Of a DNA stretch of 23,685 bases, positions 2,825-23,685 are shown in pieces. Origin of the DNA: Actinomycetota bacterium. GTDB taxonomy: Bacteria > Actinomycetota > Thermoleophilia > Solirubrobacterales > 70-9. Each line of letters begins with the position of its first letter. Position 1 is the stretch's first letter. Both the position numbers and the translations under genes were made by a program. The notes under the pieces are model-generated. The model was not told the DNA's origin. It searched no databases and saw nothing but the letters and a program-made list of their open reading frames with translations. The stretch covers positions 1 through 23,685 of the forward strand of contig JAFDWD010001093.1 in the NCBI GenBank assembly GCA_018268695.1. The letters run 5' to 3'.

Positions 2825-2899
2825 CTCCGGCGGACGGGCAAGGGACGCAAGGGTCTGCGGCGAGCCCGGCTTCCGTGCGTGTCGCGGAGCCGGCGAGGA

Positions 2900-2948
2900 G
2901 GTGCGTTCGTACTTAGGGGTCATATACGGCTCTAAGTACGAACGCACC
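2900..2948. repeat. 17-bp perfect inverted repeat (hairpin)
   Basis: The arm at 2900-2916 (GGTGCGTTCGTACTTAG) is exactly complementary to 2932-2948, with a 15-base loop at 2917-2931 that is AT-richer than its surroundings. It lies just downstream of the LuxR-type gene and would form a very stable hairpin on either strand. It may be a terminator or part of the mosaic element. There is no U-tract. Confidence 0.8.
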
Positions 2949-3012
2949 CGATGATCCCCACCGAGGTGTGGCCTCTTACGCACGGACCCTCGACGAAAGA
3001 CGCACTCCCTCC

Positions 3013-3070
3013 GTCCTGGGCGTCTCATGGAGGTCACAGCCTGCCAGGGCCTCCATGAGACGCCCAGGGC
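3013..3070 (+). repeat. Long hairpin with the conserved 12-nt loop ACAGCCTGCCAG (copy A)
   Basis: Arms 3013-3035 and 3048-3070 pair over 23 positions with two G-T wobbles, around the loop 3036-3047. The outer stem contains CCTGGGCGTCTCAT, identical to the copy at 14304-14361. The inner stem differs from that copy but keeps its pairing (GGAGG/CCTCC here, CGCGG/CCGCG there). Confidence 0.85.
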
Positions 3071-3096
3071 ACCGCCTCTCGGACGGTCGCCCCCGC

Positions 3097-3969
3097 CTAA
3101 ACGTCCGGCGCGGTCGCCGACACGATCCAGGTCGACGACGGGGCGACCACGCCGTCCTCGGTCTCGTACTGCTCCAGCACGCCGCGGATCTCGGCGGTGA
3201 TCGTCGGGCGGATCTCGTCGGCGCGGTCGCCCCAGAGGCGCAGGACCTCGCCCGCCGGGCCGATCGACATCACCAGGTCGACCGCCCCGTCGAGGTCGGC
3301 ACCCATCTTCAGCGGCAGGTCACAGCGGCGCAGCTCGATCGCCGCGAAGCCGGCGATCGCCATCTGTTCGCTGACGACGTCGGCGTTCGCCATCGAGAAC
3401 GGCCCCGGGCCGCAGGTCGGCTCCTCGGTCTCCTCCGGGTGCTCGAGGTAGCGCTCGACGACCTGCTCCGCTTCGTGGACCCAGCCGTTGTCGAGCTTGC
3501 GCCGCCAGACGACGAAGCAGACCCGCCCGCCCGGCCGCATCGCCCGCCGCACGTTGCGCAGCGCCTGCACCGGATTGGCGAAGAACATCACGCCCATCCG
3601 CGAGAAGACGTAGTCGAACGGCCCGCCGAGGTCGGCGATCTGGACGTCCCCGACGAAGTAGTCGACGTTGGCGAGGCCCTCCGCCTCCGCCTCTTCCATC
3701 GCCAGCTGCACGAAGGGCTGGGACACGTCGACGCCGACCGCCACGCCCCTCTCACCGACCATCCCGGCGAGCCGCCGTGTCGTGTCGCCGAAGCCGCAGC
3801 CGATGTCGAGGACGCGATCGGCGGGACGCGGCGGATGCGCGGCGATCGCCGCCTCGCCGTGCCGGCCCAGCCCTTCGGCGACGTAGGGGCGAAAGCGGAC
3901 GAAGCGCTCGAAGAGCGGCCCGCTCCAGGCCTCGGTCGACTCCGCGTTGGCGGGGGCGACCTCCGCCAT
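3097..3969 (-). CDS. Class I SAM-dependent methyltransferase
   Basis: A 290-residue protein with the Rossmann methyltransferase core: motif I VLDIGCGFG (about 53-61), the acidic end of strand 2 GVDVS (79-83), GD at 107-108, then FDYVFSRMGVMFF and the post-core MRPGGRV. It transfers a methyl group from S-adenosylmethionine; the C-terminal 140 residues give no clear substrate hint. The general look is Methyltransf_11/25, often seen for small molecules. ATG at 3969 is chosen because it overlaps the TGA of the upstream SnoaL-like gene (TGATG), which suggests translational coupling. A GTG one codon earlier is possible. It is the last gene of the minus-strand cluster that begins with the MarR gene. 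Confidence 0.9.
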   Translation of the reverse strand: MAEVAPANAESTEAWSGPLFERFVRFRPYVAEGLGRHGEAAIAAHPPRPADRVLDIGCGFGDTTRRLAGMVGERGVAVGVDVSQPFVQLAMEEAEAEGLANVDYFVGDVQIADLGGPFDYVFSRMGVMFFANPVQALRNVRRAMRPGGRVCFVVWRRKLDNGWVHEAEQVVERYLEHPEETEEPTCGPGPFSMANADVVSEQMAIAGFAAIELRRCDLPLKMGADLDGAVDLVMSIGPAGEVLRLWGDRADEIRPTITAEIRGVLEQYETEDGVVAPSSTWIVSATAPDV

Positions 3970-4367
3970 CACTCCCTCTCGACCGGCCGGTACCCCGAGC
4001 AGACCGTGCGCATCCAGCCGATGCGGCCGTCGCGCTCGCCGAGGAAGGCCTGCTGTTCCACTTCGAAGAGCCCTTCCGGGTTGCGGACGAGGAAGCGGTA
4101 ACCGACCCGCTCGCGGTCGGCGAAGGCGCCCGTCTCCAGGTCCAGGAGCTCGAGTATCTCGTCGGAGTCTTCGAACCAGACGCGCAGGGCGCCGCTGACC
4201 ACCGCCTCGGAGTCCTCCCCCTCCCAGAAGCGGCGCGGCGTCAGCGCGCGGAAGTCGATCTCCGGGTGGAGCAGGTCGCGGATGCGGTCGAAGTCCTTCA
4301 GCGCCAGGGCGGCGGCGAAGGAGGAGCCGAGGGACGCGGACCGGTCGACGCTCGTGATCTCGGACAT
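3969..4367 (-). CDS. SnoaL-like / NTF2-fold protein
   Basis: A 132-residue protein with the usual length and layout of the NTF2-like fold: an N-terminal helical part (FAAALALKDFDRIRDLLHPEIDFRALTP), then strands around WFEDSDEILELLDLETGAFADRERVGYRFLVRNPEG and a final IGWMRTVCSGYRP. Members are small cone-shaped pockets acting as isomerases or cyclases, or simply binding ligands; the reaction cannot be read from sequence. The start is ATG 4367 because GGAGG lies nine bases upstream; the open frame extends to 4403 without a better site. It overlaps the following methyltransferase start and is downstream of two MFS genes, so it probably shares their transcript. Confidence 0.82.
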   Translation of the reverse strand: MSEITSVDRSASLGSSFAAALALKDFDRIRDLLHPEIDFRALTPRRFWEGEDSEAVVSGALRVWFEDSDEILELLDLETGAFADRERVGYRFLVRNPEGLFEVEQQAFLGERDGRIGWMRTVCSGYRPVERE

Positions 4368-4407
4368 GGGATCGATCCTCCTCGCGACGGCCGCGGCTGT
4401 CAACGCC

Positions 4408-5616
4408 TCACTCGATCAGGTCCCGGCGGGCGACGATGATCGCCAGCGCCAGGGCGGGCATGACGATCGCGGCGACGGCGCCCGCGCGCCAGCCCAGCGC
4501 CTCGACCAGCGGGCCGACCAGGGCCGAGCCGACGCTGGCGCCGACCGTCGTCGCCAGCGCGACCCAGGTGAAGGCCTCGGTCGCGGTGCCCTGCGCCAGC
4601 GTCCTCTGGATGACCTGGTTGCGCACCGTGATCTGCGGGGCGAGCGTGACCCCGGCGAGCGCGGCGAAGACGAACATCTCCGGGATCGAGGTCGCCACCA
4701 CCAACGGCAGGCAGCTGAGGACCATGAGCGCGCCGAGCACGATCAGGGAGCGCCGCGGCGGCCCGAAGATCCCCGGACGGGCGCCATAGGCGATGCCCCC
4801 GGCACCGGAGCCGAAGGCGAGGGCCGCCGCGAACGGGCCGCCCAGGGCGGCCGCGCCGTGGTGGGCGCCGAAGGCGGGCAGCATCACGTCGAGAGCGCCG
4901 AAGGTCCCGGCCAGCGGCAGGTCGGAGAGGACCAGCAGGCGCAGGTGGGGCGAGACCAGGGCGCCGAGCCAATGGCGCTCGGCGCCGGGATCGCCGCCCG
5001 GCTCGACGGTCGAGAGGCGGGCGAAGCCGACCGACCCGAGGATGCCGAGCGCGCCCGCGACGAGCAGGCCCCCGGACGGGCCGACGGTCGCCGCCAGGAT
5101 CCCCGCCAGGAGCGGCCCGCTTACGAAGACGACCTCGATCATCACCGCGTCGAGCGCGTAGGCGGTCGGCAGCTCCGCCGGTCCGACCAGATCCGGCCAG
5201 CGCTGGCGGAAGATGCCGCCGATCGGCGTCGACCCGGCGCCGGCGACGAAGCCCGCGGCGACCAGCGGTACCGTCCCGGCGCCCGCCTCCCCCAGCACCA
5301 CGAGCGCGGCCATCGCCACCATCACCAGGAGCGCACCGGGGACGATGACCAGGCGCGAGCCGTGCCGGTCGATGACCCGCGCCAGCCACGGGCCGGTGAT
5401 CCCGAGGCCGATCGTGTAGGCGCCCGCGACGCCGCCGGCGATCCCGAACGAGTCGGTCTGGCCGTGGATGAAGAGGATGACCGCGACGCCACCCATCCCG
5501 ATCGGCATCCGCGCCAGCAGGGCGAAGCCGACCAGCGGCCGCACGCCCGGCGCCGCCAGCACGCGGCGGTAGGCGGTGAGGCCCTGGCTGGGCGGGACGG
5601 AGGCGTCGGTGGCCAT
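4408..5616 (-). CDS. MFS transporter, 12-TM type
   Basis: A 402-residue, strongly hydrophobic protein with about twelve predicted membrane segments and the Major Facilitator loop signature region around residues 75-95 (GPWLARVIDRHGSRLV). The middle break between the two six-helix halves falls near residues 200-225 (LSTVEPGGDPGAERHW). The family moves small solutes or drugs using the proton gradient; the substrate is not evident. It starts 24 bases after the stop of the larger MFS gene (5641-7107). Two MFS proteins behind a MarR regulator suggest an efflux or stress cluster. Confidence 0.88.
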   Translation of the reverse strand: MATDASVPPSQGLTAYRRVLAAPGVRPLVGFALLARMPIGMGGVAVILFIHGQTDSFGIAGGVAGAYTIGLGITGPWLARVIDRHGSRLVIVPGALLVMVAMAALVVLGEAGAGTVPLVAAGFVAGAGSTPIGGIFRQRWPDLVGPAELPTAYALDAVMIEVVFVSGPLLAGILAATVGPSGGLLVAGALGILGSVGFARLSTVEPGGDPGAERHWLGALVSPHLRLLVLSDLPLAGTFGALDVMLPAFGAHHGAAALGGPFAAALAFGSGAGGIAYGARPGIFGPPRRSLIVLGALMVLSCLPLVVATSIPEMFVFAALAGVTLAPQITVRNQVIQRTLAQGTATEAFTWVALATTVGASVGSALVGPLVEALGWRAGAVAAIVMPALALAIIVARRDLIE

Positions 5617-5640
5617 CCCACCAGCGTCCCAAAAGAAGGG

Positions 5641-7107
5641 TCAGTCGGGCTTGACGCCGGGCAGGCCGGCGCCGGCGAGCTCGGCTTCCTCGCGCTCGCG
5701 GCGGAGCTCGCTCGGCGTCGGCTCGTTGCCGCGACCCAATCCCCGCCCCGGCAGGACCCAGGCGACGACCGCGGCGAGGACGCAGATGCCGACCCCGGTC
5801 CAGGTGATCGCGTCGTAGCCGGCGAGGCGCGGCAGGCGGCTGCCCGCCGGGGTCTGTGAGGCGAGCAGGGTCGCGCCGATCGCGCTTCCCATCGAGAAGC
5901 CGATGTAGCGGACCACCTGGTAGAAGCCGGTCGCGCTCCCGGTCTCGCTTTCCGGCACGGCGCGGACGATCATCGCCGGGATCGCGCCGTAGGTCAGGCC
6001 GTATCCCAACCCCATCACGCCCATGATCACGAAGGCGCTCCAGATGCCGCCGTTGAAGAGGGCGAAGACGACACCGCCCGCGGCGACGATCAGCGCGCCG
6101 ACCGGCAGCAGGTTCGACGGGCCGAGCAGGCGGGTCCAGAACGGCAGCGTGCGCGAGCCGACGATGCTGAACACCGAGAACGGGACCAGGCAGAGGCCGG
6201 CGAGAACCACCGAGGCCGAGAAGCCGTAGCCGAGCTCCTTCGGCGCCTGGACGAACTCGCTGACCCCGGTCAGGTACAGGTACATCGCGACGCCGAGCAC
6301 CAGCGCGGCGACGTCGACGCTGAAGACCGCCGGGTGGCGGGCCAGGCGGAGGTCGACCAGCGGTTCCGGCGTGCGCAGCTCCTGCGCCCCCCAGAGCAAC
6401 AGGAAGACCACCGCGACTCCGAAGAGGCCGAGCGTCGCCGGCGCCCCCCAGCCCCAGCGGCTGCCCTCGGCGATCGCGATCAGGAGCGCCGCCAGGCCGA
6501 TCGTCAGGAGCGTCGCGCCGATCACGTCGAGCTTGCCCGCGGGCTGACCCGCGGTCGAGGGGATGAAGAGGACGGCGAGCACGAGGGCGAGCGCCGCGAC
6601 CACGGCGCCGAACCAGAACGCCGCCGAGAGGCTGATCCCGGCGAGCAGGCCGGAGATCGGGTAGCCCGCCCCCACCCCGGCCGCGCCCGCGACCGAGAGC
6701 AGGCCGATCACGGCGGGGACCCGCTCCGCCGGCAGCTCGTCGCGCGCGGTCGCCATCCCCTGCGGCACCAGGCCGAGGCCGAGGCCCTGCATCGCCCGGC
6801 CGAGGACGAGCACCGGGAGGCTCTGCGCGAGCGCCGCGATCACGCAGCCGAGCGCGACGACGGCCAGCCCGCCGATCAGCGTCTCGCGGCGGCGCGGGCC
6901 GTCGGCCAGTCGTCCCATCACCGGCGAGGAGATGACGCCGACCAGGAGCGTCGCGGTCAGCGACCACTGGGCGGCGCTGAGCGAGACGCCGAGATCGTCG
7001 CTGACGCTCGGGATCAGGGGCGCGCCGAGCGATGAGATGACCCCGGTGACCATCACGATCGACACCAGGACCCCCGGCAGGAGGCGCGCCCGCAGCGCCG
7101 GGCTCAT
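5641..7107 (-). CDS. MFS transporter, DHA2-like 14-TM drug exporter type
   Basis: A 488-residue integral membrane protein with the features of the drug:H+ antiporter-2 group. Loop 2-3 has the motif GRLADGPRRRETLIGG (about residues 65-80), and LVLGRAMQGLGLGLVPQG (about 99-117) and AGAAGVGAGYPISGLLAG (about 140-158) resemble antiporter motif C. Length and hydrophobic periodicity fit 14 helices. The C-terminal 35 residues are charged and cytoplasmic (SELRREREEAELAG). Its ATG overlaps the MarR stop (ATGA), the classical local arrangement of a MarR repressor with the pump it controls. It is likely a multidrug or toxic-metabolite exporter; the substrate is unknown. Confidence 0.9.
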   Translation of the reverse strand: MSPALRARLLPGVLVSIVMVTGVISSLGAPLIPSVSDDLGVSLSAAQWSLTATLLVGVISSPVMGRLADGPRRRETLIGGLAVVALGCVIAALAQSLPVLVLGRAMQGLGLGLVPQGMATARDELPAERVPAVIGLLSVAGAAGVGAGYPISGLLAGISLSAAFWFGAVVAALALVLAVLFIPSTAGQPAGKLDVIGATLLTIGLAALLIAIAEGSRWGWGAPATLGLFGVAVVFLLLWGAQELRTPEPLVDLRLARHPAVFSVDVAALVLGVAMYLYLTGVSEFVQAPKELGYGFSASVVLAGLCLVPFSVFSIVGSRTLPFWTRLLGPSNLLPVGALIVAAGGVVFALFNGGIWSAFVIMGVMGLGYGLTYGAIPAMIVRAVPESETGSATGFYQVVRYIGFSMGSAIGATLLASQTPAGSRLPRLAGYDAITWTGVGICVLAAVVAWVLPGRGLGRGNEPTPSELRREREEAELAGAGLPGVKPD

Positions 7108-14049: not shown

Positions 14050-14101
14050 CGGCCGTCTCGGCCACGGCCCTGGCTGGCTGTGGCCGTGGCCGAGACGGCC
14101 G
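14050..14101 (-). repeat. 20-bp hairpin with conserved 12-nt loop (copy B, opposite orientation)
   Basis: Arms 14050-14069 and 14082-14101 are perfectly complementary. Read on the minus strand the loop is ACAGCCAGCCAG, identical to the loop at 14327-14338, and the stem again contains CGTCTC. The rest of the stem is unrelated to copies A and C but fully paired. Confidence 0.85.
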
Positions 14102-14146
14102 GGGGATGTGGGGAAGCGGCTGGGCCCGGGTCGTGGGCCGGGCCCG

Positions 14147-14271
14147 GAACGGTCAGGAATCTGCGCGGTTAGAAATCCACGCCTGGCGTGGATTACCAAC
14201 CACGCAGACCTTGCGGTGTTCGAAACCCGTCGTAGAGGCGGATAAGGAACAGGGCAGATTCCTGACCGTTC
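14147..14271. repeat. Branched inverted-repeat structure
   Basis: The outer arms 14147-14163 and 14255-14271 match over 17 bp (GAACGGTCAGGAATCTG and its complement). Inside, 14174-14194 is a 10-bp near-loopless palindrome (AATCCACGCC-T-GGCGTGGATT). The bases 14161-14170 can alternatively pair with 14198-14207 with one mismatch. The segment could form a multibranch RNA or a DNA cruciform. Its role is unknown. Confidence 0.7.
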
Positions 14272-14303
14272 GAATCCCCCGCTCTTCCGCACGGAACCCT
14301 CGC

Positions 14304-14361
14304 GTCCTGGGCGTCTCATCGCGGTCACAGCCAGCCAGGACCGCGATGAGACGCCCAGGAC
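14304..14361 (+). repeat. 23-bp perfect hairpin with 12-nt loop ACAGCCAGCCAG (copy C)
   Basis: Arms 14304-14326 and 14339-14361 pair perfectly around the loop 14327-14338. The outer 16 stem bases match copy A (3013-3070), and the inner ones differ with pairing kept. It ends eight bases before the stop codon of the HAD gene, so it is placed to end transcription of that gene. Confidence 0.88.
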
Positions 14362-14368
14362 ACCGAAT

Positions 14369-15037
14369 CTAGGACTGCCGCAACCCTCCGAGCAGCCGCT
14401 CCACCGCCTCGGCCAGGGTGTCGAGGATCTCGGTCGCGTCTTGAAGTTCCGCCTCCGGATGGGTGGTGCGGAAGGCGACGACGGGGATGCCGGCGGCGCG
14501 GGCGGACTCGATGCCGCTCGGCGCGTCCTCGAGGACCAGGCAGCGGGACGGGTCGACGCCGAGCTCACGGGCGCCGAGAAGGAAGGGTTCGGGGTCGGGC
14601 TTGCCACGTTCGATCGAGTTCGCGGTGATCAGGACGGCGGGCGGCGCGAGGCCCGCCCCGCGGAGGCGCGCGGTCGCCAGCTCGGTCGAGCCGCTGGTGA
14701 CGACCGCGATCGGGATCGGCCCGGCGAGGAGCTCGGCGGCGCCCGGATAGGCGGACACCGAGTCGGCGTCCTCGACCTCGTCGCGGTCGATCTGGGCCTG
14801 CTCGGCGTCGCGTTCGCCCTCCGACACCAACAGGGCGACGGTCTCCCGGGTCGGCCTGCCCATGGCGAAGCGGTGGGTCTCCTCCTCGTCGAGGCCGCGA
14901 CGTCGCGCCAGTGCCCCCCAGGCCCGCTCGCTGGAGGCGACCGAGTCGACCAGGGTGCCGTCGAGGTCGGCGAGGATCGCGGCGGGCGCCCAGATGCCGG
15001 CGTCCGCTTCGCCCGGACGTTGGTCGGCTCCGCTCAC
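14369..15037 (-). CDS. HAD superfamily hydrolase, subfamily IA (phosphoglycolate/sugar phosphatase type)
   Basis: A 222-residue phosphatase with all four HAD motifs: motif I LADLDGTLVDS (nucleophile Asp24, acid/base Asp26), motif II VVTSGS (Ser115), motif III Lys in RGKPDPEPF (Lys146), and motif IV CLVLEDAPSGIESARAAG (Glu170, Asp171). The helical cap lies between motif I and the SVSAYPGAAELL stretch, as in subfamily IA enzymes acting on small phosphorylated sugars. The start is GTG 15037, since the frame upstream contains no better start and would run into the riboswitch region. The gene diverges from the B12-regulated gene at 15254 and has no evident functional link to it. Confidence 0.92.
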   Translation of the reverse strand: MSGADQRPGEADAGIWAPAAILADLDGTLVDSVASSERAWGALARRRGLDEEETHRFAMGRPTRETVALLVSEGERDAEQAQIDRDEVEDADSVSAYPGAAELLAGPIPIAVVTSGSTELATARLRGAGLAPPAVLITANSIERGKPDPEPFLLGARELGVDPSRCLVLEDAPSGIESARAAGIPVVAFRTTHPEAELQDATEILDTLAEAVERLLGGLRQS

Positions 15038-15099
15038 TGAACCGATCCTAGGGAACGGGCAGCCGGGCCGACCGACCCGTCCCGTACGTTGCCGTCGTC

Positions 15100-15201
15100 G
15101 AGCGGTCGAGGGAACTGCGGTGCGAACCCGCGACTGACGCGCAACGGTGATGGGACGTCCCGGATCAGATCCGGGGTCCCTAGTCCGAATGCCGGCCGCT
15201 C
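15100..15201 (+). promoter_or_regulatory. Cobalamin riboswitch (compact) upstream of the intrinsic-factor-like gene
   Basis: The leader shows the cobalamin (B12) aptamer signature: GGGAACTGCGGTGCGAACCCGC, then GACTGACGCGCAACGGTGA and, near the 3' end, AGTCCGAATGCCGGCC. A closing P1 helix pairs GAGCGGTC (15100-15107) with GGCCGCTC (15194-15201). At about 102 nt it is shorter than the usual 180-220 nt form, with one hairpin (GGGAC/GTCCC enclosing CCCGGATC/GATCCGGG) where the peripheral helices are expected. AGGAG of the downstream gene lies 40 bases after P1. B12 binding should reduce expression. Confidence 0.9.
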
Positions 15202-15253
15202 CGACACACATAGGACCCCTCGCTCTCGCGAACGGACAAAAGGAGATCCACCG

Positions 15254-16645
15254 ATGCAGTTCCTGAAACGCCGGCTGGCGGCATTCGTCGTCGTCGCCAT
15301 CGCCGCCCTCGCAGTCCCGGCCACCGCACTGGCCACCTCGACGCCCGAACAGGTCGCCTCCGCGATCGCCAAAGGCCTCCCCTATCTGGAAGGCACGCAG
15401 GCCGAAAACGGCAGCTTCCCCGGCTTCGGCGGCGACTGGTCGCTGACCTCGTTCGCCGCCGCGGGCAAGGCCGCCGCGGACCTTCGCTACAAAGGCGAAG
15501 CGAAACGGCCCGATGCCCGTAGCTTCTACGGCAGCTCGACCGAATACGGGAGCCCGACCTGGCCCGGAACCGGCGCCGCGGTGACCGACTACGAGCGCGC
15601 CGCGCTGGTCGCCTACGCGGCCGGCATCGACCCGGCCCGGCCCTCGAATCGCCAAAACCTCCTGGCCCAGATCGTCGCCCAGTACCAGCCGGCGAGCCCC
15701 GGCTACTTCGGCAGCACCTTCAACGGCACCGTGTTCGGAGTGCTGGCGCTGACCGGCGCCAAGAGCCAGGCGGGCGCCCAGCGCTTCCCGCGGTCGCTGC
15801 TCGCCCTCTCGGTCGCGGCGATCAAGGGCAACCAGCACACCGACGGCGGCTGGACCTGGGAAAAAGCGGCGGGCAACGAAACGGCGCTGAAACGACCGAG
15901 CGAACCCGACCTGACCGGAGCGGCGATGGCGGCGCTCTGCGGCGCCGGGGTCGCCAACACCGACGCGAACATCGTCAGAGCGAAGAGCTACCTGGTCGGC
16001 CTGCTCGAATCCTCGACCGGCGCCTTCGCCTCCGAATTCGGCGTCAACACCGACTCCAACTCGTGGGCCGTGCAGGGGCTGAACGCTTGTGGGATCAATC
16101 CCCAAGGGGCCGAATTCACCACCGCCGCGGGCAAGACGCCGATCGACTTCCTGATCGCCCAACAGCTCGCCTCCGGCGCGTTCAAGTACCAGCCGGCGGC
16201 CACCGCCGCGAACCAGTACTCAAGCCAGGACGCCGTCCGCGCTCTCGCCGGCGGCGGGTTCACCGCCGCCCCACCGACCCCGAAAGCCGGCGAAAAATGG
16301 CTGGCGGCGAGCTCGTTCGCGACCGGAGCATCGGAATCCGACCCGCTCGCGCTGACGATCGAATACGGCACGACGCTGAAGGTGTGCGCCGTCTCGGTGG
16401 CACCGAAAGCGACGACCACGACGCTGGCGACGGTGCTCGAAACGGCGATGACCGCGACGACGCCGAGCGGTTGTGTCACCGGCCTGCAGCCGACCTCCGG
16501 CACCGGCGCGATCACCCAGGTCAACGGCTATCCGGAACCGAAAGTGGCCGGGTGGAACGTCTCGATCGACGGCGCCGCCGCGGTTCAGGCCAAACGCGGC
16601 ACCGTCATCCACGTCGGCGACACGATCAGCCTGAAGTTCGAATAG
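15254..16645 (+). CDS. Secreted intrinsic-factor/transcobalamin-like protein (alpha-barrel plus DUF4430)
   Basis: A 463-residue exported protein. Residues 1-28 are a signal peptide (KRR, hydrophobic core, ATALA). Residues about 30-335 carry alpha/alpha-barrel repeats of the squalene-cyclase/prenyltransferase type, seen as recurring turn motifs: NGSFPG, DGGWTWE, TGAFASEFG, SGAFKYQP. Residues about 362-463 form a DUF4430 beta domain (LALTIEYGTTLKVC ... GWNVSIDGAAAVQ ... HVGDTISLKFE). Animal intrinsic factor and transcobalamin have the same order of domains and clamp cobalamin between them. ATG 15254 has AGGAG eight bases upstream, in the leader of a B12 riboswitch. No membrane anchor or lipobox is visible, so it is probably released or wall-associated. 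Glu is written almost only as GAA. Function as a corrinoid binder is inferred. Confidence 0.85.
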   Translation: MQFLKRRLAAFVVVAIAALAVPATALATSTPEQVASAIAKGLPYLEGTQAENGSFPGFGGDWSLTSFAAAGKAAADLRYKGEAKRPDARSFYGSSTEYGSPTWPGTGAAVTDYERAALVAYAAGIDPARPSNRQNLLAQIVAQYQPASPGYFGSTFNGTVFGVLALTGAKSQAGAQRFPRSLLALSVAAIKGNQHTDGGWTWEKAAGNETALKRPSEPDLTGAAMAALCGAGVANTDANIVRAKSYLVGLLESSTGAFASEFGVNTDSNSWAVQGLNACGINPQGAEFTTAAGKTPIDFLIAQQLASGAFKYQPAATAANQYSSQDAVRALAGGGFTAAPPTPKAGEKWLAASSFATGASESDPLALTIEYGTTLKVCAVSVAPKATTTTLATVLETAMTATTPSGCVTGLQPTSGTGAITQVNGYPEPKVAGWNVSIDGAAAVQAKRGTVIHVGDTISLKFE

Positions 16646-16652
16646 GCGGCGC

Positions 16653-16685
16653 GGCCGACCCCGGGAGGCGATCCCGGGGTCGGCC
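16653..16685. terminator. Bidirectional hairpin terminator between convergent B12-regulated genes
   Basis: A 14-bp perfect hairpin with arms 16653-16666 and 16672-16685 and a 5-base loop GGCGA. It sits in the 54 bases between the stops of two convergent genes, so it can serve both. No clear U-tract follows on either strand, as is common in high-GC actinobacteria. Confidence 0.75.
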
Positions 16686-16699
16686 AGGCCTCGCCCTCC

Positions 16700-18673
16700 T
16701 CAGCGGCGGGAGCGGGAAGCGGGCACGACGCACCTCCGTGCCTTGCCGGCGAGATGCCCGCCCTGGCGTCGGCAGGCGGTGCGCCGACGGGCGTCCGCTT
16801 TCTTCCGCTTCTTCGCGGCCGCGGCCTTTCCGGCCGGGCCGCGGGAGCCCCGGTCGCCCTTCGGTCCCTGCGAACCGGCGGGACCGGCCACGCCGGTCGG
16901 GCCGACGGGACCCGGCGCCCCGGTCGCGCCCGCATCCCCGGCGGGGCCCGCAGGCCCGGCGGGACCGGCCGACCCCTGGCCCGTCGTCGCCGCGACGCCG
17001 GTCCCGCTCAGCGCCACCGGCGGCCCGTAGGCGCCGTTGGCGTTCAGCAGGTGCAGCAAGGCCGTCGCCGCGCCGGTCGCCGAGGGGGCGAACCGCACCC
17101 CTACCGTGCATCCCATGCCGGGTTCGATCGGCGTGCCCTGGCAGTCACCCGCGGCGACGACGAAGTCTTCCCGCTGCGGGCCGGTGACCGAGAAGCGCGG
17201 TTCGACCGGCGCTTCCTTGACCCGGACGTAGACCGTCTTACCGCGCCCGACGGTGCCTTCGGCCTGCTCACCGAATTCGATCGCGGCGCCCGTCGCTTCG
17301 AGGCCGCCCGCCGCCGGGAAACGGAGCCGCAGGAAATCGCCCGCTTCCACTTCCTGACCGCCGGGCGGCGATTCGAAGGTCGACGCGCTGGAGACGACCC
17401 AGCGGTGCCCGGCGCTGTCGGCGACGCCGTTGATCGCCGTCACCTCGCCTTCGCCGTCGACGGAGAGGCCGCTGACGCACGGCAGTTCGGCGGCCGACGC
17501 TTCGGTTTTCGCCGCTTCGAGGACTTCGACGATCGTCGACCCGGTCGGGGCGACGACCCGGCAGAGCCGCGGGTCGCCGCGGCCGTTGTCGATCAGCAGG
17601 GTCAGCGGCACCGGGGTACCGTCCGCGATCGCCGGGCCTTCGACGAACTGCGGCGGGTAGGCGACGAAGCTGCCGCCGGCCAGGGCGCGGAGCGCGTCCT
17701 GGGTCGCGTAGAGGCTGACGAACCCTTCCCCTTCGCCCGCTTCGTATTCGAAGCTGCCGGCGTTCGGGCCGGTCTGCCGCTGCAGCGACAGCAGGTAGTC
17801 CTCGGGCGTCTTGCCGAGCGGCGTCGTCCAGGGCGCCGCGGCGAGGTCGACGCCGCACGACTTCAAGCCGTCGAGCGCCCACGCGTTGGTGTCGGCGTTG
17901 GGACCGAAGGGCGTTCCGAAGGTGCCGGTGCTCGGGTCGAATTGCGTTTCGAGGAAGGCGATCCCGCGTGACACCGCCGGGTCGGCGGGCGTCGCGCCGG
18001 TCGCGCAGAGCGCCGCCAGGGCGGCACCGGAGATTTCGACTTCGCTTCTGACGCTCGGCGCGCCCGCGTTGAAGCGCCAGCCGCCGTCGTCGTTTTGGTT
18101 GCGACGGAGGTATTCGGCCGATTTCGCCAGCAGCCCGTAGGGCGCTTCGACCGCCGACATCGCCAGCGTGCCGAAGACGGTTTCGTTCACGCCGCCTTCG
18201 TTGCCGTAGCTGCCGCCGAAGCGGTAGAGCGAGGCCAGTTGGGCCACCGCGTTCTGGTCGGCGGAGAGCGCCGACGGCTGCAGCCCGCCCGCGTAGGAGT
18301 TGAGGATGATCCGGGCGAAGTCCCCGGCGATCTTGTGGCCGGGGTTCTGGTTTTCGTTCGGGACGGTCGGTTCGGCGAACGGCGCCGAGGTCCATTCGCC
18401 GAGGAAGAAGTCGTCGAGGCTCGGCGCCCCCGGCGTCGGGCCGTGAACTTCGGCGGGGCTGACCCCGGCCGCGGCCAGGGCGCTCATCGCCCAGTCCGCG
18501 CCGAAGCCTTCGAGGGCTCCGGTGGTGGTGTTCTGCTGCCCGCGGATCCAGGTCGTCGCCGATTCGATCGACTGCGAGATCTCTTCCTGGGTCGCGGCGG
18601 AAGCGGCGGCCGGGACCAGCCCGAGCACCGCGAGGACAGCCGTCAAGGCGACGGCCGCGAGGTGGCGTTTCAT
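16700..18673 (-). CDS. Secreted intrinsic-factor-like protein with DUF4430, ASH-like and collagen-like tail
   Basis: A 657-residue exported protein. Residues 1-27 are a signal peptide ending ASAA. Residues about 28-338 carry alpha/alpha-barrel repeats (GALEGFGADW, NDDGGWRFN, TGTFGTPFGPNADTNAWA, AGSFEYEAG). Residues about 354-455 are DUF4430-like (PVPLTLLIDNGRGDPRLC ... HRWVVSSAST ... VEAGDFLRLRF). A beta domain of the choice-of-anchor/ASH type follows (about 458-558, IEFGEQAEGTVGRGKTVYVRV, GCTVGVRFAPSATG). Then come a collagen-like Gly-x-y run (about 569-615) and a Lys/Arg-rich end with two Cys. The basic tail could stick to cell wall polymers. ATG 18673 has AAGGAG eight bases upstream, behind its own B12 riboswitch. 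It is a paralogue of the 15254 gene (shared GKTP, QDALRALAGG, SxAWALDGLKSCG-type stretches), extended at the C-terminus. Confidence 0.85.
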   Translation of the reverse strand: MKRHLAAVALTAVLAVLGLVPAAASAATQEEISQSIESATTWIRGQQNTTTGALEGFGADWAMSALAAAGVSPAEVHGPTPGAPSLDDFFLGEWTSAPFAEPTVPNENQNPGHKIAGDFARIILNSYAGGLQPSALSADQNAVAQLASLYRFGGSYGNEGGVNETVFGTLAMSAVEAPYGLLAKSAEYLRRNQNDDGGWRFNAGAPSVRSEVEISGAALAALCATGATPADPAVSRGIAFLETQFDPSTGTFGTPFGPNADTNAWALDGLKSCGVDLAAAPWTTPLGKTPEDYLLSLQRQTGPNAGSFEYEAGEGEGFVSLYATQDALRALAGGSFVAYPPQFVEGPAIADGTPVPLTLLIDNGRGDPRLCRVVAPTGSTIVEVLEAAKTEASAAELPCVSGLSVDGEGEVTAINGVADSAGHRWVVSSASTFESPPGGQEVEAGDFLRLRFPAAGGLEATGAAIEFGEQAEGTVGRGKTVYVRVKEAPVEPRFSVTGPQREDFVVAAGDCQGTPIEPGMGCTVGVRFAPSATGAATALLHLLNANGAYGPPVALSGTGVAATTGQGSAGPAGPAGPAGDAGATGAPGPVGPTGVAGPAGSQGPKGDRGSRGPAGKAAAAKKRKKADARRRTACRRQGGHLAGKARRCVVPASRSRR

Positions 18674-18755
18674 GTCGTTGCTCCTTTTTCAGGGCGACGA
18701 CACGCACGCGCCGAGGCGGGTGAGGGTCGGCGCCTATACGCGAGACGATTGACTC

Positions 18756-18906
18756 CTCACGACCGGGTCTTCGGACTCGGGGTCAGCCTCGCGGATCTCC
18801 TTCCCAAGCCTTCTTTTCCTCGGCTCAGTGGACCGGACGAGCCGCTCGTCACCCTCACCGCTGCGCGTCAGTCCCGGACTCTCACCGGGTTCCCCGCGTT
18901 CGTGAG
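18756..18906 (-). promoter_or_regulatory. Cobalamin riboswitch upstream of the 16700-18673 gene
   Basis: Read on the minus strand the leader has GGGGAACCCGGTGAGAGTCC, then GGGACTGACGCGCAGCGGTGA and at the 3' side GAGTCCGAAGACCCGG, all hallmarks of the cobalamin aptamer. Likely P1 arms are 18898-18906 and 18756-18764 (CTCACGA with TCGTGAG). It is about 151 nt, longer than the copy at 15100. Shared core words with that copy (GACTGACGCGCA, CGGTGA, AGTCCGAA) show that the two are close relatives. Confidence 0.9.
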
Positions 18907-18907
18907 C

Positions 18908-18944
18908 GGGGCGATTCCTACCACAGCCCGGCCGAGCCGGTCAA
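18908..18944 (-). promoter_or_regulatory. Putative promoter for the minus-strand B12 riboswitch transcript
   Basis: On the minus strand TTGACC (18939-18944) is followed 18 bases later by TAGGAA (18915-18920). Transcription would then start near 18908, right at the 5' end of the riboswitch P1 arm. The position fit supports it, although the -10 box is only a moderate match. Confidence 0.5.
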
Positions 18945-18969
18945 GCGATAGGGTCGCCGGACAAAGATC

Positions 18970-19125
18970 AGGGAGCGGTGGCAAGGGAAGCCGGTGAGAG
19001 ACCGGCGCGGGCCCGCCACTGTGACCGAGGAAGCCCGTCGCAGGCGCGACGCGCGGCCACTGGTCCACCGACCGGGAAGGCGCGACGGGAAAGCTCGGAA
19101 GCCAGGAGACCTCCTCCGACTCCCC
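18970..19125 (+). promoter_or_regulatory. Cobalamin riboswitch heading the four-gene operon 19161-23105
   Basis: A canonical cobalamin aptamer: AAGGGAAGCCGGTGAGAGACC, then GGCGCGGGCCCGCCACTGTGACC (B12 box at about 19011-19022) and the 3' signature GGAAGCCAGGAGACCT (19097-19112). The peripheral region between them is fuller than in the other two copies (about 70 nt). The two divergent riboswitches are separated by only about 63 bases (18907-18969). The first gene starts 35 bases after the aptamer, with AAAGGGG upstream of its ATG. Expression of the operon should fall when B12 is plentiful. Confidence 0.93.
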
Positions 19126-19160
19126 ACCACGTCGACCGCCCTCGCGGAAAGGGGCCAGGC

Positions 19161-20567
19161 ATGCGCAAGTCAGTCGCGACGCTGTTCGTCGCCATCCTCT
19201 CGTCCACCTCATTGGTGGTGTTCGCGGCCCCCGCGTCGGCGGCCCAGACCGAGGTCAACGTCCGGATCGAGGGGCGGGCGGAAACGCTCTTCGAGGGCCC
19301 GGTGCTGGTCGAACCCGACGGCGTCCGGGCCTCCTCGGACACCGCGCCCCGCCGCTGCAACGGGATCAACCCGCTCGACCCGGAGAACGTCCTGCCGGCG
19401 CCGACGCCGACGGCCGCCACGGCCGACGCGCTCGGGTTGATCGGCGAGACCTTCGACGGCCAGTGGTATCCAGGCTTCAACGACTACTTCATCACCCGTT
19501 GGGGACCCGACGCGCAGAGCCCCGGCGAAGCCGCCTACTGGGGCATCCTCGTCAACGACACCTTCACCAACGTCGGCGGCTGCCAGTACCAGCTCGATAC
19601 CGGCGACGAAGTCCTCTGGGCCTACGACGCGTTCAAGGGACGGCCGGACCTCGCCCTCCTGCCCGCGGCCGCCGCCTACGCCACCGGCCCGCGGCCGCTG
19701 ACCGCGACGACCGGCCTGAACGAACCGATCGCGGTGGAAGTCGTCGCCTACGAAGACGACGAAGAGAACCGGCCGCCGGCGACTCCGGGACGGATCGGCT
19801 CGAGCCCCTTCGCCAATGCCCAGATCGCGCCGGTGGTGACGTCGGCCCAGGGTTTCGAGCGGGTCAACCTCAAATCGGCCGAAACGAAGTCCTCGAACGG
19901 TGAAGGGAAGGCGACCTTCACCTTCACCGAACCGGGATGGCACCGGATCAAGGCGACTGTCGCCGGCGCGGGAGCCGAAGGGGCGATCCGCTCCAACCGC
20001 CTCGACATCTGCGTCACCGGCGGCGTGCCGACGAAAGCACTCGAAGGGGCGATGAGCTGCAACGAACTACCGGCCGCCGACAGGGTCCGGGTCGCGCCCC
20101 GGATCGCCGGCGAAGTCGACGGGCCGGCGGCGGGCGGCGGTGGCGGCGGGGAGACCGATGGCGGCGGCGGGACGGGCGGCGGTGGTGGCAACTCCGCCGG
20201 GGGCTCCGGACAGGGCTCCTCGACCCCTCCCGGGGGAGGCTCGGCGGCGACGGGGTCGCTGAAGGTGAGCATGCCCAGGGTCGACCGCAGGCATCTCGCG
20301 CAGGGGAAGCTCGGGATCACCTGGCAGGTGACCGACCGCGGGCCGGGCGTGCGTGGTTGGACGATCTCCTCGCTCACCCTCGGCGCCAAGAAGGCCCGCT
20401 GGATCGCCCGGGCGAGCGGCAGCGCCAGGTCCGCCGCGACGATCCGGCTTCCCCGCGGCCACACCTACAAGCTGCGCTTCGCGATCGCCGACGCAAGCGG
20501 GCAGGTCGCGACGATCGCGCTCGGCAGGGTGGCGGTGCCGAAGGCGGGCGACCCGGGCCCCCGATGA
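19161..20567 (+). CDS. Exported DUF4430-like protein with Gly-rich linker and C-terminal beta domain
   Basis: A 468-residue exported protein. A signal peptide covers residues 1-28 (MRKSVATLFV ... APASAA). Residues about 30-157 resemble the DUF4430 fold (TEVNVRIEGRAETLFEGPV, YWGILVNDTFTNVGGCQYQ, TGDEVLWAYD), the beta domain that covers the ligand in transcobalamin-like proteins. Residues about 185-290 form a second beta-rich region (EPIAVEVVAYEDD, KATFTFTEPGWHRIKATV). Then come a Gly/Ser-rich linker (about 320-365) and a C-terminal beta-sandwich-like part (SLKVSMPRVDRRHLA to VAVPKAG). There is no alpha barrel; that domain is on the next gene, whose ATG overlaps this stop (ATGA). Likely role: the beta half of a two-protein corrinoid binder. 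It is the first gene after the riboswitch. Confidence 0.82.
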   Translation: MRKSVATLFVAILSSTSLVVFAAPASAAQTEVNVRIEGRAETLFEGPVLVEPDGVRASSDTAPRRCNGINPLDPENVLPAPTPTAATADALGLIGETFDGQWYPGFNDYFITRWGPDAQSPGEAAYWGILVNDTFTNVGGCQYQLDTGDEVLWAYDAFKGRPDLALLPAAAAYATGPRPLTATTGLNEPIAVEVVAYEDDEENRPPATPGRIGSSPFANAQIAPVVTSAQGFERVNLKSAETKSSNGEGKATFTFTEPGWHRIKATVAGAGAEGAIRSNRLDICVTGGVPTKALEGAMSCNELPAADRVRVAPRIAGEVDGPAAGGGGGGETDGGGGTGGGGGNSAGGSGQGSSTPPGGGSAATGSLKVSMPRVDRRHLAQGKLGITWQVTDRGPGVRGWTISSLTLGAKKARWIARASGSARSAATIRLPRGHTYKLRFAIADASGQVATIALGRVAVPKAGDPGPR

Positions 20568-22228
20568 AGCTCGCCCTGGCGACCGCGATCACCGCCACCG
20601 CCCTGGCCGGGGCGGCGGTGGCGGTGGCGCTGACCCCGGAGCACCAGGCCTTGATCGACTCCACCGTGCGCTACCTGCAGGAGACCCAGGACACGAGCGG
20701 CGGCTTCGCCGAGCCCGGCCAGAGCCCGAGCCAGGGGATCAGCGCCTGGGTCGCGCTGGCCCTCGCCTCGGCGGGGATCAATCCAGAGGACCAGGCGCGC
20801 TGCGGCGCATCCGCCCTCGAATACCTCGAAGGGCACTTCGCCGAAGGGCTCGAAGAAGAACTGGCCTGGCCGCAGATCGGCGTCACCTCGCTCGAGCGCG
20901 AACTGCTGGTCATCGACGCCGCGGGGACCGATCCGCACTCCTTCGCCGGCCACGACCTGGTCGCGGAGATCCTCGCCCGGCAGCTGCCCGACGGCTCCTT
21001 CGCCTACACCCCCGACGGGAGGCATGGCGAATCCAACGACACGATCTTCGCCATCCTCGCGCTCGACCCGGTCCACGAGCCGGTGGTCGAAGAAGCGATC
21101 GCCGCGGCGCGCGAATGGGTCGTCTCGGCCCAGCTCGAAGACGGCGGCTGGTACTACTCGGGCGCCGCCCCGCACAGTGAAGTCGACATGACCGGCGCCG
21201 CGATCGAGGCCCTCGTCGTCGCCGGGGCACCCGCCGAGGAACCGGCGCGCGCCGCCTACGAGTCGGCGATCTCCGCGGGCCTCGAATACCTCCGGCGGGC
21301 ACAGCTGCCAGACGGCGGCTTCCCGGCGCTGCCGAGCGGGGAAACCGAATCGAACGTCGCCTCGACCGCCTGGGCGGTGCAGGCGATCTGGGCGCTCGGC
21401 GGCAATCCGGAAACCTGGACGACCGGCCCTGAGGCGCGCGAACCGCTCGACTACGTGGAATCGATGCAGGCCGAGGACGGCCACATCCGCTGGCGCGCCA
21501 GCACCGACATGAACGGGATCTGGATGACCGCCTACGTCACCCCGGCGTTCGCCGGGCAGGCGCTGCCGATCCCGGCCGCGGCCCGCGGCAGCGCCGAGGC
21601 GCAGGCGGGCGAGGCGGCCTCCTGCCTGAAGGTCGGCAGCGAAGAAGGGAGCGCGCCGCAGTCACAGGAAGGCGTGATCGCCGGCGGCGGCGGCGGGCAC
21701 GGGGCGCCGTCCTTCAGCCGGCCGAAAGCTCAGAGCAAGGGCAGGACGCCCGGCGGCGCGCGGGTCGTGCGCGGCCAGGGCCTGACGGCGCGGAACCACA
21801 GCCCGCGGAACCGGCGCGGCGCCGACGCCGACCAGCCGCGCGGGACCGAGACCGTCGAACCGCGGAGCGCCGCGGAAGCCGACCAGGAAGTCGAAGCGGT
21901 CTCAGCCGGGCCGGCGGGGACCGCCGACGGTGGCTTGGGCGGCGAGGGATCCGATCGCGGTGGTCGCGGCGAGCGTGGCGCGCCGCTCACCGTCGGGGAT
22001 CCCCCGCCGACCGAGCCCTCGACTCGCGGCGAAGAGGTCAGCGGCGTCGTGATCGGAGCGCCGCAAGGCGACGAACGCAGCAAGCTCGCCTTCGGCGCGC
22101 CGGGCCTGCGCAGCGCCGGGGCCGGGGCCACCGCGGAGCCGTGGACGGCGATCGGCATCGGCGCCGCGGCACTGCTCGCGGCACTCTCCGGGGCAGGCTG
22201 GGAGCGCCGCCGGGGGAGGCTCGCGTGA
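20564..22228 (+). CDS. Membrane-anchored alpha/alpha-barrel protein (intrinsic-factor alpha-domain-like)
   Basis: A 554-residue surface protein. A short signal peptide (1-22, KLALATAITATALAGAAVAVA) precedes an alpha/alpha barrel (about 24-340) with the turn motifs SGGFAE, DGSFAYTP, DGGWYYSG, DGGFPALP and DGHIRW, as in the squalene-cyclase-like barrels of intrinsic factor. Residues about 345-525 are a low-complexity stalk rich in Gly, Arg, Glu and Ser. Residues about 526-545 are a C-terminal membrane helix followed by ERRRGRLA, so the barrel is displayed outside on a tether. It has no DUF4430 of its own; the upstream overlapping gene supplies one. Its stop overlaps the GTG of the ExbB-like gene (GTGA), showing tight coupling. 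Corrinoid binding is inferred from fold and riboswitch control. Confidence 0.85.
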   Translation: MKLALATAITATALAGAAVAVALTPEHQALIDSTVRYLQETQDTSGGFAEPGQSPSQGISAWVALALASAGINPEDQARCGASALEYLEGHFAEGLEEELAWPQIGVTSLERELLVIDAAGTDPHSFAGHDLVAEILARQLPDGSFAYTPDGRHGESNDTIFAILALDPVHEPVVEEAIAAAREWVVSAQLEDGGWYYSGAAPHSEVDMTGAAIEALVVAGAPAEEPARAAYESAISAGLEYLRRAQLPDGGFPALPSGETESNVASTAWAVQAIWALGGNPETWTTGPEAREPLDYVESMQAEDGHIRWRASTDMNGIWMTAYVTPAFAGQALPIPAAARGSAEAQAGEAASCLKVGSEEGSAPQSQEGVIAGGGGGHGAPSFSRPKAQSKGRTPGGARVVRGQGLTARNHSPRNRRGADADQPRGTETVEPRSAAEADQEVEAVSAGPAGTADGGLGGEGSDRGGRGERGAPLTVGDPPPTEPSTRGEEVSGVVIGAPQGDERSKLAFGAPGLRSAGAGATAEPWTAIGIGAAALLAALSGAGWERRRGRLA

Positions 22229-22824
22229 TCGCCGCGGCGCTCGATCTCGGCGACGCCCTCTCTCAAATCGCGACGGCGCTGCGGGTGCCGGTGATGATCG
22301 CGGCGGTCGTCGTCCTGCTCCTCTGCGCGCTGGAGCTGGGGCGCTTCGCCTTCGAATCCTGGCGGCGATGGCGCAACCGCCACTTCGACCTCGGCGAGCT
22401 GGTCGCCCGGGCGCTCGCCGAGCCCTCGCACGCCGACCACTACGCCCGCTATGCCCGCAGCCCGATGAGCGCCCAGGCGGTGAGGTCGATCGCCGGCGCC
22501 CCGCCGGCCGAACGCGGCACGGCCACCGAGCGCGCCCTCGTCGACTACGAGCTCGCCGTCCAGCGCCGGCTCGACCGCACCCGGCTGCTGGTCCGCGCCG
22601 GCCCGGCGATCGGCCTGATGGGGACGCTGATCCCGCTGATCCCGGGGCTGGCGGCGCTCGCCGGCGGCGACGTCTCCGCCCTCGCGGGCGACCTGCGCGA
22701 TGCCTTCGGCGCGACCGTCGTCGGCCTCCTGGTCGGCACCGTCGCCTTCGCCCTGACCCTCACCCGCACGCGGATCTACACCGAAGACCTCGCCGGGCTC
22801 GAGCGCGGGAGCGCGATCCGATGA
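22225..22824 (+). CDS. MotA/TolQ/ExbB-family proton channel protein
   Basis: A 199-residue protein with three membrane helices (about 21-43, 124-146 and 161-181) and a cytosolic loop between the first and second, the ExbB/TolQ topology. The signature is AGPAIGLMGTLIPLIPGLAAL followed by DAFGATVVGLLVGTVAFAL, matching the conserved Gly-Leu-Gly-Thr and Ala-x-x-x-Thr-x-x-Gly-Leu segments of the family. Family members form pentameric stators that use proton flow to move a partner protein. GTG 22225 is chosen because GGGGGAGG lies six bases upstream and the codon overlaps the preceding TGA. The partner is probably the DUF2149 protein encoded by the overlapping next gene. A link to outer-surface B12 binders is new to me. 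Confidence 0.88.
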   Translation: MIAAALDLGDALSQIATALRVPVMIAAVVVLLLCALELGRFAFESWRRWRNRHFDLGELVARALAEPSHADHYARYARSPMSAQAVRSIAGAPPAERGTATERALVDYELAVQRRLDRTRLLVRAGPAIGLMGTLIPLIPGLAALAGGDVSALAGDLRDAFGATVVGLLVGTVAFALTLTRTRIYTEDLAGLERGSAIR

Positions 22825-23105
22825 GCCGCATCGGCCTCGGCCGCCACCGGGCGAGCGAAGAGCACCTCGGCGACCCCCTGGACGGCCTCGTCAACCTCTT
22901 CGACGTCGGCATGATCCTGGCGATCGCCTTCCTGATCGCCGGCCTCGGCCTCACGCTCCACCTGTCCCCGGGCGCCAAGAAGACCATCCCCCACCCCGCG
23001 AGCGCCCCCCAGGCCACCGGCCGCGGCACCCCGGTCGGCCAGGTCTACCGCCTCCCCGACGGCCGCCTCGTCTACGTGAAGAGCGGTCGGACGACGCGGA
23101 AATAG
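22821..23105 (+). CDS. DUF2149 family protein, ExbD-like single-pass membrane protein
   Basis: A 94-residue protein with a cytosolic N-terminus, one membrane helix (about 28-48) and a short outer domain. The stretch DPLDGLVNLFDVGMILAIAF places Asp28 at the start of the helix, like the essential proton-carrying Asp of ExbD/TolR (phi-x-D-V-hydrophobic run). The C-terminal part VGQVYRLPDGRLVYVKSG is the typical DUF2149 ending. DUF2149 genes are known to me next to MotA/ExbB-like genes, so the pair probably forms one proton-driven complex. The ATG overlaps the stop of the channel gene (ATGA). It is the last gene of the B12-controlled operon and meets the minus-strand gene at 23107 with one base between stops. 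Confidence 0.85.
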   Translation: MSRIGLGRHRASEEHLGDPLDGLVNLFDVGMILAIAFLIAGLGLTLHLSPGAKKTIPHPASAPQATGRGTPVGQVYRLPDGRLVYVKSGRTTRK

Positions 23106-23106
23106 C

Positions 23107-23685
23107 TCAGCGCGAGCGAGCGGGGCGACGCTGCGACGCGGATGCCACGGTCCGACGGCTGAGCGCGATCTTCTTCGAGACGCGCTTCGTCTTGCCGGAG
23201 GCGCTGAAGGCGACCTTCACGCCGACCTTCGCCTTGCCGACCTGCCGCAGCAGGCGGACCTTGGCGCCCTTCGCCGCGACCACCAACCGGTAATGCCCGG
23301 GGGCCGGGGTGGCCAGGGATTCGGCACGGACGGCGGCGCCGCTCAGCGTCAACACGCCGGCGGCGCTGACCTTCGCGGTCAACACGGCGGAGCCGTTGGC
23401 GAGGCTGCGGACGCGGGTCACGTGAAGGGTCACAGGCGCCGGCGCGGGAACCGTGCCGGGGGTCGTCGGCTGCGGCGTCGGCGAAGGAGTCGGCGTCGGG
23501 GTCGGGGTCGGCGTCGGCGGCACCGGGAGCGGCGCGCACGTTTCTTCGATCCCCGCCGGGATGGACTTGCCGAAGGCGACCCCGTAGGCCTTCTTCGCCG
23601 CCTCGCCGAAGTAGGGGCCGTAGAGGTAGCCCGGCTGGCCTTCGTAGCTGTAGGCCGTCAGCGAGAGCACCGTCGGCGCGCCGCT
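23107..23685 (-). CDS. C-terminal part of a secreted protein with PT-rich linker and beta-domain tail (partial)
   Basis: The frame is open to the right edge, so the start lies outside the window. 192 residues are visible. The first 47 (APTVLSLTAYSYEGQPG, GPYFGEAAKKAYG, IEETC) belong to an unidentified upstream domain. A PT-rich linker of about 30 residues follows, then an Ala/Val/Lys-rich beta domain (VTLHVTRVRSLANGSAVLTA, AGVLTLSGAAVRAE, GHYRLVVAAKGAKVRLL, KAKVGVKVAFSASG) and a basic end. Such a tail after a PT linker is a familiar style of exported proteins in Solirubrobacterales, where it may attach to the cell surface. A GTG near the edge (23668-23670) is unlikely to be the true start. 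It may belong to the same surface system, but nothing visible proves this. Confidence 0.75.
   Translation of the reverse strand, partial: SGAPTVLSLTAYSYEGQPGYLYGPYFGEAAKKAYGVAFGKSIPAGIEETCAPLPVPPTPTPTPTPTPSPTPQPTTPGTVPAPAPVTLHVTRVRSLANGSAVLTAKVSAAGVLTLSGAAVRAESLATPAPGHYRLVVAAKGAKVRLLRQVGKAKVGVKVAFSASGKTKRVSKKIALSRRTVASASQRRPARSR
23461..23522. repeat. Short tandem GTCGGC/GTCGGG repeats coding for a Pro-Thr linker
   Basis: A run of imperfect hexamers (GGCGTC, GGGGTC) encodes the PT-repeat linker of the partial gene on the minus strand. Such runs can change length by slippage, here in whole Pro-Thr units. Confidence 0.7.

Follow-up and report, generated by a model that had tools for sequence, protein, structure and literature searches.

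A cobalamin-riboswitch operon of Solirubrobacterales with the features of a possible Ton-like B12 uptake device

The DNA analysed here, referred to below as the window, is a stretch of 23,685 nucleotides (contig JAFDWD010001093.1, positions 1 to 23,685) from an Actinomycetota bacterium of the order Solirubrobacterales, and it contains an operon of four genes, C, D, E and F, headed by a cobalamin riboswitch. We propose that this operon encodes a Ton-like device for B12 uptake in a cell seemingly without an outer membrane, in which a surface receptor, the product of gene D, is pulled by a predicted proton-driven motor composed of an ExbB-like protein (E) and a DUF2149 protein (F); we judge the proposal about as probable as its being wrong. 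What is new in this analysis is the tail of D, consisting of a strand-like box, a flexible stretch and a C-terminal helix, and its link to ExbB/DUF2149. An earlier note on this DNA overlooked both this tail and the fact that the ExbB/DUF2149 pair is not restricted to B12. The parts are of known kinds; what appears to be new is their combination, with a B12-controlled receptor that is apparently its own force transducer where there are no signs of an outer membrane, and there is a real chance that it forms a new class of Ton-like system.

The operon and its recurrence in related genomes

A search with RF00174, for which the Rfam cut-off is 31.5 bits, places three matches inside about 4 kb, each heading one of three transcripts, in agreement with the earlier note; the elements ahead of B and C (78.4 and 69.0 bits) pass the cut-off, and the one ahead of A (31.0 bits) falls just short of it (Table 1). 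Counted from the end of its riboswitch, the start codon is 39 bases away in A (15254), 70 in B (18673, minus strand) and 48 in C (19161). There are 4-base overlaps at the C-D, D-E and E-F junctions, and together with the family matches of E and F these support the placing of an ExbB-like and a DUF2149 module on one transcript. An N-terminal hydrophobic segment is present in each of A, B, C and D, and with the toroid and DUF4430 matches and the structure model of A this bears out the description of the riboswitch-controlled genes as coding for exported proteins resembling intrinsic factor. Named matches of E and D come mostly from Solirubrobacterales.

Table 1. Positions of genes and elements in the window
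Feature	Position	Strand	Evidence
Cobalamin riboswitch 3, ahead of the C-D-E-F operon	18984..19112	+	RF00174 69.0 bits
Gene C, predicted exported DUF4430 protein, 468 residues; candidate for the beta half of a split intrinsic factor	19161..20567	+	PF14478 6.3e-7
Gene D, predicted exported toroid protein, 554 residues, long linker, membrane helix at the C-terminus; candidate for the alpha half and for the force transducer	20564..22228	+	Prenyltrans 2.4e-9, SQHop 3.2e-10
Candidate coupling box VSGVVIG, D residues 492-498	22037..22057	+	Box in 113/113 C-anchored D homologues
D C-terminal membrane helix (residue 527 on), ER end	22142..22207	+	Hydropathy 1.53, barely above threshold of 1.5
Gene E, ExbB/TolQ/MotA-like, 199 residues, GTG start	22225..22824	+	MotA_ExbB PF01618 6.6e-10
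Gene F, DUF2149 protein, 94 residues, one membrane helix with Asp28, outer beta hairpin	22821..23105	+	PF09919 8e-10
Predicted beta hairpin of F, VYRLPDGRLVYV, candidate acceptor of the D box	23043..23078	+	Strands 74-77 and 83-86 in low-confidence model
Cobalamin riboswitch 1 (marginal)	15086..15214	+	RF00174 31.0 bits, E 6.6e-5, complete model 1-189, 0.5 bit below cut-off
Gene A, predicted exported, 463 residues, toroid and DUF4430-like beta domain (complete intrinsic-factor-like architecture)	15254..16645	+	AlphaFold2 pLDDT 84
Cobalamin riboswitch 2, ahead of gene B	18744..18919	-	RF00174 78.4 bits
Gene B, predicted exported, 657 residues, toroid and beta domain, choice-of-anchor D-like part, collagen-like stalk	16700..18673	-	Collagen 8.2e-8

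A profile search of the order with ExbB gave matches in 42 of 121 genomes, at 56 places; 40 of these 56 loci were examined, and with the window they make a set of 41. Genes in the relatives were called by a simple script, and starts and a few genes may be wrong. DUF2149 adjoins ExbB in 40 of the 41 loci, and the sole exception sits at a contig end. The riboswitch and all four genes are found in one locus in the window and nine relatives (L081, L082, L083, L084, L085, L092, L093, L135 and L136), so that the module and the corrinoid regulon are indeed conserved together, with the full set behind a riboswitch in ten loci. Two of the loci are arranged differently: in L083 C reads towards D-E-F with a separate riboswitch on each side, and in L136 E-F come after a ribonucleotide-reductase pair and converge on D. 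We note that L136 has a weak B12 riboswitch (27.9 bits, below the cut-off) ahead of the class I ribonucleotide reductase genes, which run into ExbB-DUF2149 (positions 1504-6041). All eight genomes that hold a relative of E have RF00174 matches above the cut-off, and more widely DUF2149 is found at class level in 38 of 249 genomes and at phylum level in 8 of 296.

Searches for outer-membrane functions and for importers of the energy-coupling factor (ECF) type were made in related genomes. ExbD (PF02472), the TonB C-terminal domain (PF03544), TonB-dependent receptors and Omp85 were each absent from all eight relatives (0/8) and each detected in the E. coli control, as would be expected of the cell without BtuB and TonB that had been supposed. 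That the system serves scavenging by a cell needing B12 is not established, since in a relative a riboswitch also precedes genes of cobalamin synthesis.

The tail of D and the predicted ExbB/DUF2149 motor

The tail of D runs from the box VSGVVIG (residues 492-498) through a flexible stretch to a C-terminal helix beginning at residue 527 and an ERRR end, and because of this tail the sequence suggests that D itself may be the partner of the motor. A C-terminal helix passes the threshold in 113 of 117 full-length D homologues, and the box is present in every one of these 113, at 27-32 residues before the helix. Mean conservation across the 117 rows is 0.41-0.60 in the blocks covering residues 401-500 versus 0.68-0.71 in 501-550, so that the tail stands above the linker preceding it. 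A strict form of the box, [VIL][STEDNR]G.[LV][LIV], occurs in nine of the ten D proteins of the riboswitch-C-D-E-F loci, and the tenth has VSGAIV.

The box is also found beyond D, lying 23-43 residues before the C-terminal helix in 26 of 31 C-anchored proteins encoded directly upstream of ExbB, whatever their outer domain; these include PKD proteins with no detected toroid and one protein without any Pfam match. The 31 proteins derive from 43 non-planctomycete loci, 12 of which were left out for having no C-anchored upstream open reading frame (ORF) by the threshold; these 12 include L094, where the helix scores 1.36 and the tail has a VNGVLL box, and L086 (cut by the contig end, with VDGVVV). 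Among the five misses, the box of L083, VSGVLV, is partly beyond the 80 residues kept and L107 looks spurious, and the others are the ECF S-like protein directly upstream in L093 and proteins of similar length and tail in L092 and L087. As controls, the box is present in 1 of 28 single-helix C-anchored genes of the same loci (this one being D of L093, itself a member) and in 29 of 1935 random 70-residue windows. The box is missing from the D-type paralogues of L121, L130 and L133 (0/3), ECF loci that have no ExbB, though two of these proteins have a C-terminal helix.

In the predicted motor, residues T134 and T164 of E are invariant in 20 of 20 sequences, and they align with T148 and T181 of E. 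coli ExbB in a weak profile alignment (probability 8%). Asp28 of F is kept in 56 of 57 sequences, and an outer beta hairpin is predicted in a model of low confidence (predicted local distance difference test score, pLDDT, 69; predicted template modelling score, pTM, 0.31). The available part of PMC10100974 likens HmuU and HmuV of Bacteroidota to ExbB and ExbD, and the last gene of the Hmu operon is annotated as DUF2149 in that of PMC10434189. Beta-strand recruitment is the means by which ExbD of the Ton system takes hold of the D-box, a membrane-near strand of TonB (PMC10907165, with related work in PMC10771500, both as far as the accessible text goes).

Several results weigh against the proposal that D is pulled by E and F. 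The alignment of Asp28 of F with Asp25 of ExbD has an E value of 6e-4 for a single comparison and a probability of only 12%, so that the match of DUF2149 to ExbD is weak. The strict box is present in only two of 18 held-out upstream ORFs, which come from additional genomes of the class and phylum; a relaxed form allowing Pro at position 5, defined after looking, is present in 10 of the 18, and it also occurs in two of the 28 controls and 35 of the 1935 windows. In planctomycetes, inspection by eye of 12 loci, eight with an upstream ORF, found no boxed C-anchored protein directly upstream. The held-out set consisted of 20 loci minus L168 (without an ExbB match) and L172 (at a contig end), and its 18 ORFs were not filtered for a helix, with L153 and L156 under the helix threshold. 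The presence of one fixed box in all DUF2149 loci is rejected by the two strict matches in 18. In L154-L167, 13 of 14 upstream ORFs (L156 being the other) have a near-C-terminal helix above threshold, mostly after a Ser/Pro/Thr-rich linker. Elsewhere in the phylum, the divergent DUF2149/ExbB pairs of L169-L171 have hydrophobic membrane proteins upstream rather than a boxed protein.

Proposed mechanism, importer and alternatives

In the mechanism that we propose, C, with its beta domain, and D, with its toroid, would clamp a corrinoid between them like the two domains of intrinsic factor. E and F would form an ExbB-ExbD-like 5:2 proton channel with Asp28 of F within the ring of T134 and T164 of E, and the hairpin of F would take up the box of D as an added strand, in the way that ExbD takes up the D-box of TonB. 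The flow of protons would exert a pull on the linker of D that opens the very tight C-D clamp, and the freed corrinoid would move on to an importer of the ECF type (S, T and double ATPase) with its genes either in the operon or at another place. The motor would pay for release of the ligand from a near-irreversible surface binder, and not for the opening of an outer-membrane gate; A and B would serve as additional surface or secreted binders. Cobalamin is held extremely tightly by intrinsic factor and transcobalamin, and in animals the ligand is freed by lysosomal digestion of the carrier; given such tight binding, energised release would make sense. If the proposal is true, it explains how a bacterium can use a carrier of the intrinsic factor type and yet recover the ligand, and, as Ton motors are understood as outer-membrane devices, it presents a case of what such a motor does without an outer membrane.

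None of the seven window proteins scanned matches an ECF S, T or ATPase component. In relatives, genes for T, double ATPase and S-like components occur with DUF4430 and toroid partners, several of them behind B12 riboswitches. The L092 operon has the order C, D, DUF4430 lipoprotein, CbiQ-type T, double ATPase, membrane protein, ExbB, DUF2149, and that of L093 resembles it, with the protein before ExbB matching ECF_trnsprt at 29.9 bits, just below the cut-off of 30.7. A CbiQ-type T gene is present in all nine genomes that hold a B12-type locus; it lies within about 3 kb of a riboswitch in G001, G003, G004 and G006 and within the operon in G037 and G043, and in G002 and G005 no riboswitch is listed on its contig (G091 was left out of the whole-genome riboswitch scan). 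Locus L121 of G001, a closest relative, has its own riboswitch followed by genes for a small C-like protein, a DUF4430 protein, T, a double ATPase and a protein of 714 residues. This last protein (L121:2346-4490, minus strand) has an ECF S-like part at about residues 33-179 (27.6 bits, below the cut-off) and then an intrinsic-factor-like toroid. As read from its sequence and its place beside the T and ATPase genes, the fusion is likely to be a direct genetic link of the carrier fold to a likely corrinoid importer. The earlier note had held that the membrane step would need a permease that is encoded elsewhere or is new: the first part stands, since relatives encode an ECF-type importer at a separate place or, in L092 and L093, within the operon, and a new permease is consequently not called for. 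Overall, what survives of that interpretation is the corrinoid regulon, the architecture and the conserved module, and what falls is the new permease.

The pair is not confined to B12 loci. Together with the tail, ExbB/DUF2149 occurs in an operon with FecCD and Peripla_BP_2 in L108 and in one with PBP_like_2, BPD_transp_1 and ABC in L099, and it also accompanies PKD proteins; the motor may thus be a general energiser of surface proteins, with B12 one use among several. Loci L099, L105, L106, L108 and L112, in which ExbB/DUF2149 accompanies boxed PKD-type or other proteins, suggest other likely cargoes of the motor. Five loci (L094-L098) form a conserved set, each with genes for a toroid protein that is secreted, a protein with the box and a long ExbB, and with DUF2149 as well wherever the contig extends far enough; the boxed protein of L094, the one scanned of the five, has no Pfam match, and no B12 riboswitch passes the Rfam cut-off in L089 or in L094-L100. 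A broader suggestion, on which we lean slightly towards doubt, is that single-membrane bacteria have a Ton system of their own, in which surface nutrient receptors (B12 clamp, PKD proteins) with their own force-transducing tail would be pulled by an ExbB/DUF2149 proton motor and release near-irreversibly held ligands to an importer, the B12 form being a split intrinsic factor opened by proton-motive force.

The same operons can be read differently: E and F may energise an importer or the envelope by a different route, such as an ECF S component, and the tail of D may be a mere anchor that brings the binder to where uptake takes place. The S-like membrane protein encoded directly upstream of ExbB in L093 fits this, as do the proteins of similar length and tail in the same place in L092 and L087, and in the FecCD and PBP_like_2/BPD_transp_1 operons the pair likewise stands beside an ABC importer. 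However, a conserved box is superfluous for a plain anchor, D paralogues beside ECF genes but without ExbB have no box, and the box is present in PKD proteins without a detected toroid; we consider this explanation unlikely. It is less likely still that the ligand is a precursor, cobinamide or a cobalt chelate rather than complete B12. B12 riboswitches also control the uptake of cobalt and corrinoid precursors, and CobN and CobB/CobQ-type genes lie behind a riboswitch in a relative, but the two-domain architecture is that of cobalamin carriers. The notion that surface binding of corrinoids is a store or an adhesin-like coat, with a motor for the wall or for signalling that is unrelated to B12, seems improbable. 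In its favour, B has a collagen-like stalk, A and B have no C-terminal helix, and 33 of 41 ExbB/DUF2149 loci have no B12 riboswitch by pattern search (eight of these having none by Rfam either). Against it, the operon is riboswitch-headed, its genes overlap, the set is repeated in nine relatives and an ECF importer is joined to it in two.

Genes A and B and comparison with known systems

The proposed split form in C and D has one-chain counterparts in A and B, in which a toroid and a DUF4430-type beta domain occur together, as judged in A by the structure model, in which both domains are present, and in B by its alignment to A (33% identity over 466 columns, spanning A residues 21-462). The top eight Foldseek matches of the model of A are all transcobalamin entries. 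A PDB sequence search with the A profile (E up to 1) gave nine cyclase-type rows and one designed protein and thus no sequence evidence for transcobalamin, so that the transcobalamin likeness of A rests on the fold search. Sequence matches in these genes are the weaker part of the observation: in A, DUF4430 reaches 15.4 bits against a cut-off of 23.8 and the toroid has a weak NCBIfam match (1.8e-5); in B, the toroid is below the Pfam cut-off, the beta domain has no Pfam match, and choice_anch_D reaches 27 bits, below its cut-off of 45. No match to PF01122 appeared among the seven window proteins scanned (Pfam, E up to 1). That the window holds three unrelated paralogues is ruled out by the toroid common to A, B and D. 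Elsewhere in the window, spurious ORF translations at about 2968-3040 and 14100-14370 contain the near-identical peptide SRSQPARxxMRRPGH, hinting at a dispersed intergenic repeat, and an open-ended ORF at 23107-23685 (minus strand), which has a linker of Pro-Thr repeats and matches nothing in Pfam, is convergent with the DUF2149 gene.

The proposed device shares with Ton systems an ExbB-like channel (E), a small partner with a membrane Asp (F) and a transducer with one membrane helix, a flexible linker and a strand-like box near the membrane, comparable to the D-box described in the available text of PMC10907165. It differs in that the eight relatives lack the TonB C-terminal domain, ExbD, TonB-dependent receptors and Omp85, and in that the helix of D is C-terminal and the proposed transducer bears the ligand-binding domain. 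With the vWA force transducers that act with TolQ-like motors it has in common the idea of extracytoplasmic proteins driven by 5:2 motors, as proposed in the accessible portion of PMC12204202, but no vWA domain was found here; the same portion calls the incomplete Ton systems of monoderm Actinobacteria likely non-functional. ECF cobalamin importers (CbrT; SCO2321-family) resemble the T, double ATPase and S-like genes that relatives carry with DUF4430 and toroid partners, whereas for CbrT the part of PMC5997447 available names no surface binder, and in our case the importer lies outside the window.

Animal intrinsic factor and transcobalamin have the same toroid and DUF4430-type domain as A and B, and are the kind of protein to which the Foldseek top matches of A belong; the bacterial proteins differ in the splitting of C and D into two chains, the anchoring of D and the lack of a PF01122 match. 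HmuSTUV of Bacteroidota has the same ExbB/DUF2149 pair (HmuU being ExbB-like and HmuV DUF2149) but is a diderm heme system with a CobN-like dechelatase and a TonB-dependent receptor; no CobN family match, and so no CobN-like HmuS beside the pair, was seen among the seven window proteins scanned, which include the neighbours of the pair. HmuV is taken as diagnostic of heme transport in the available part of PMC10100974, whereas here DUF2149 accompanies B12 and other operons, and if our proposal is true DUF2149 gains a role beyond heme.

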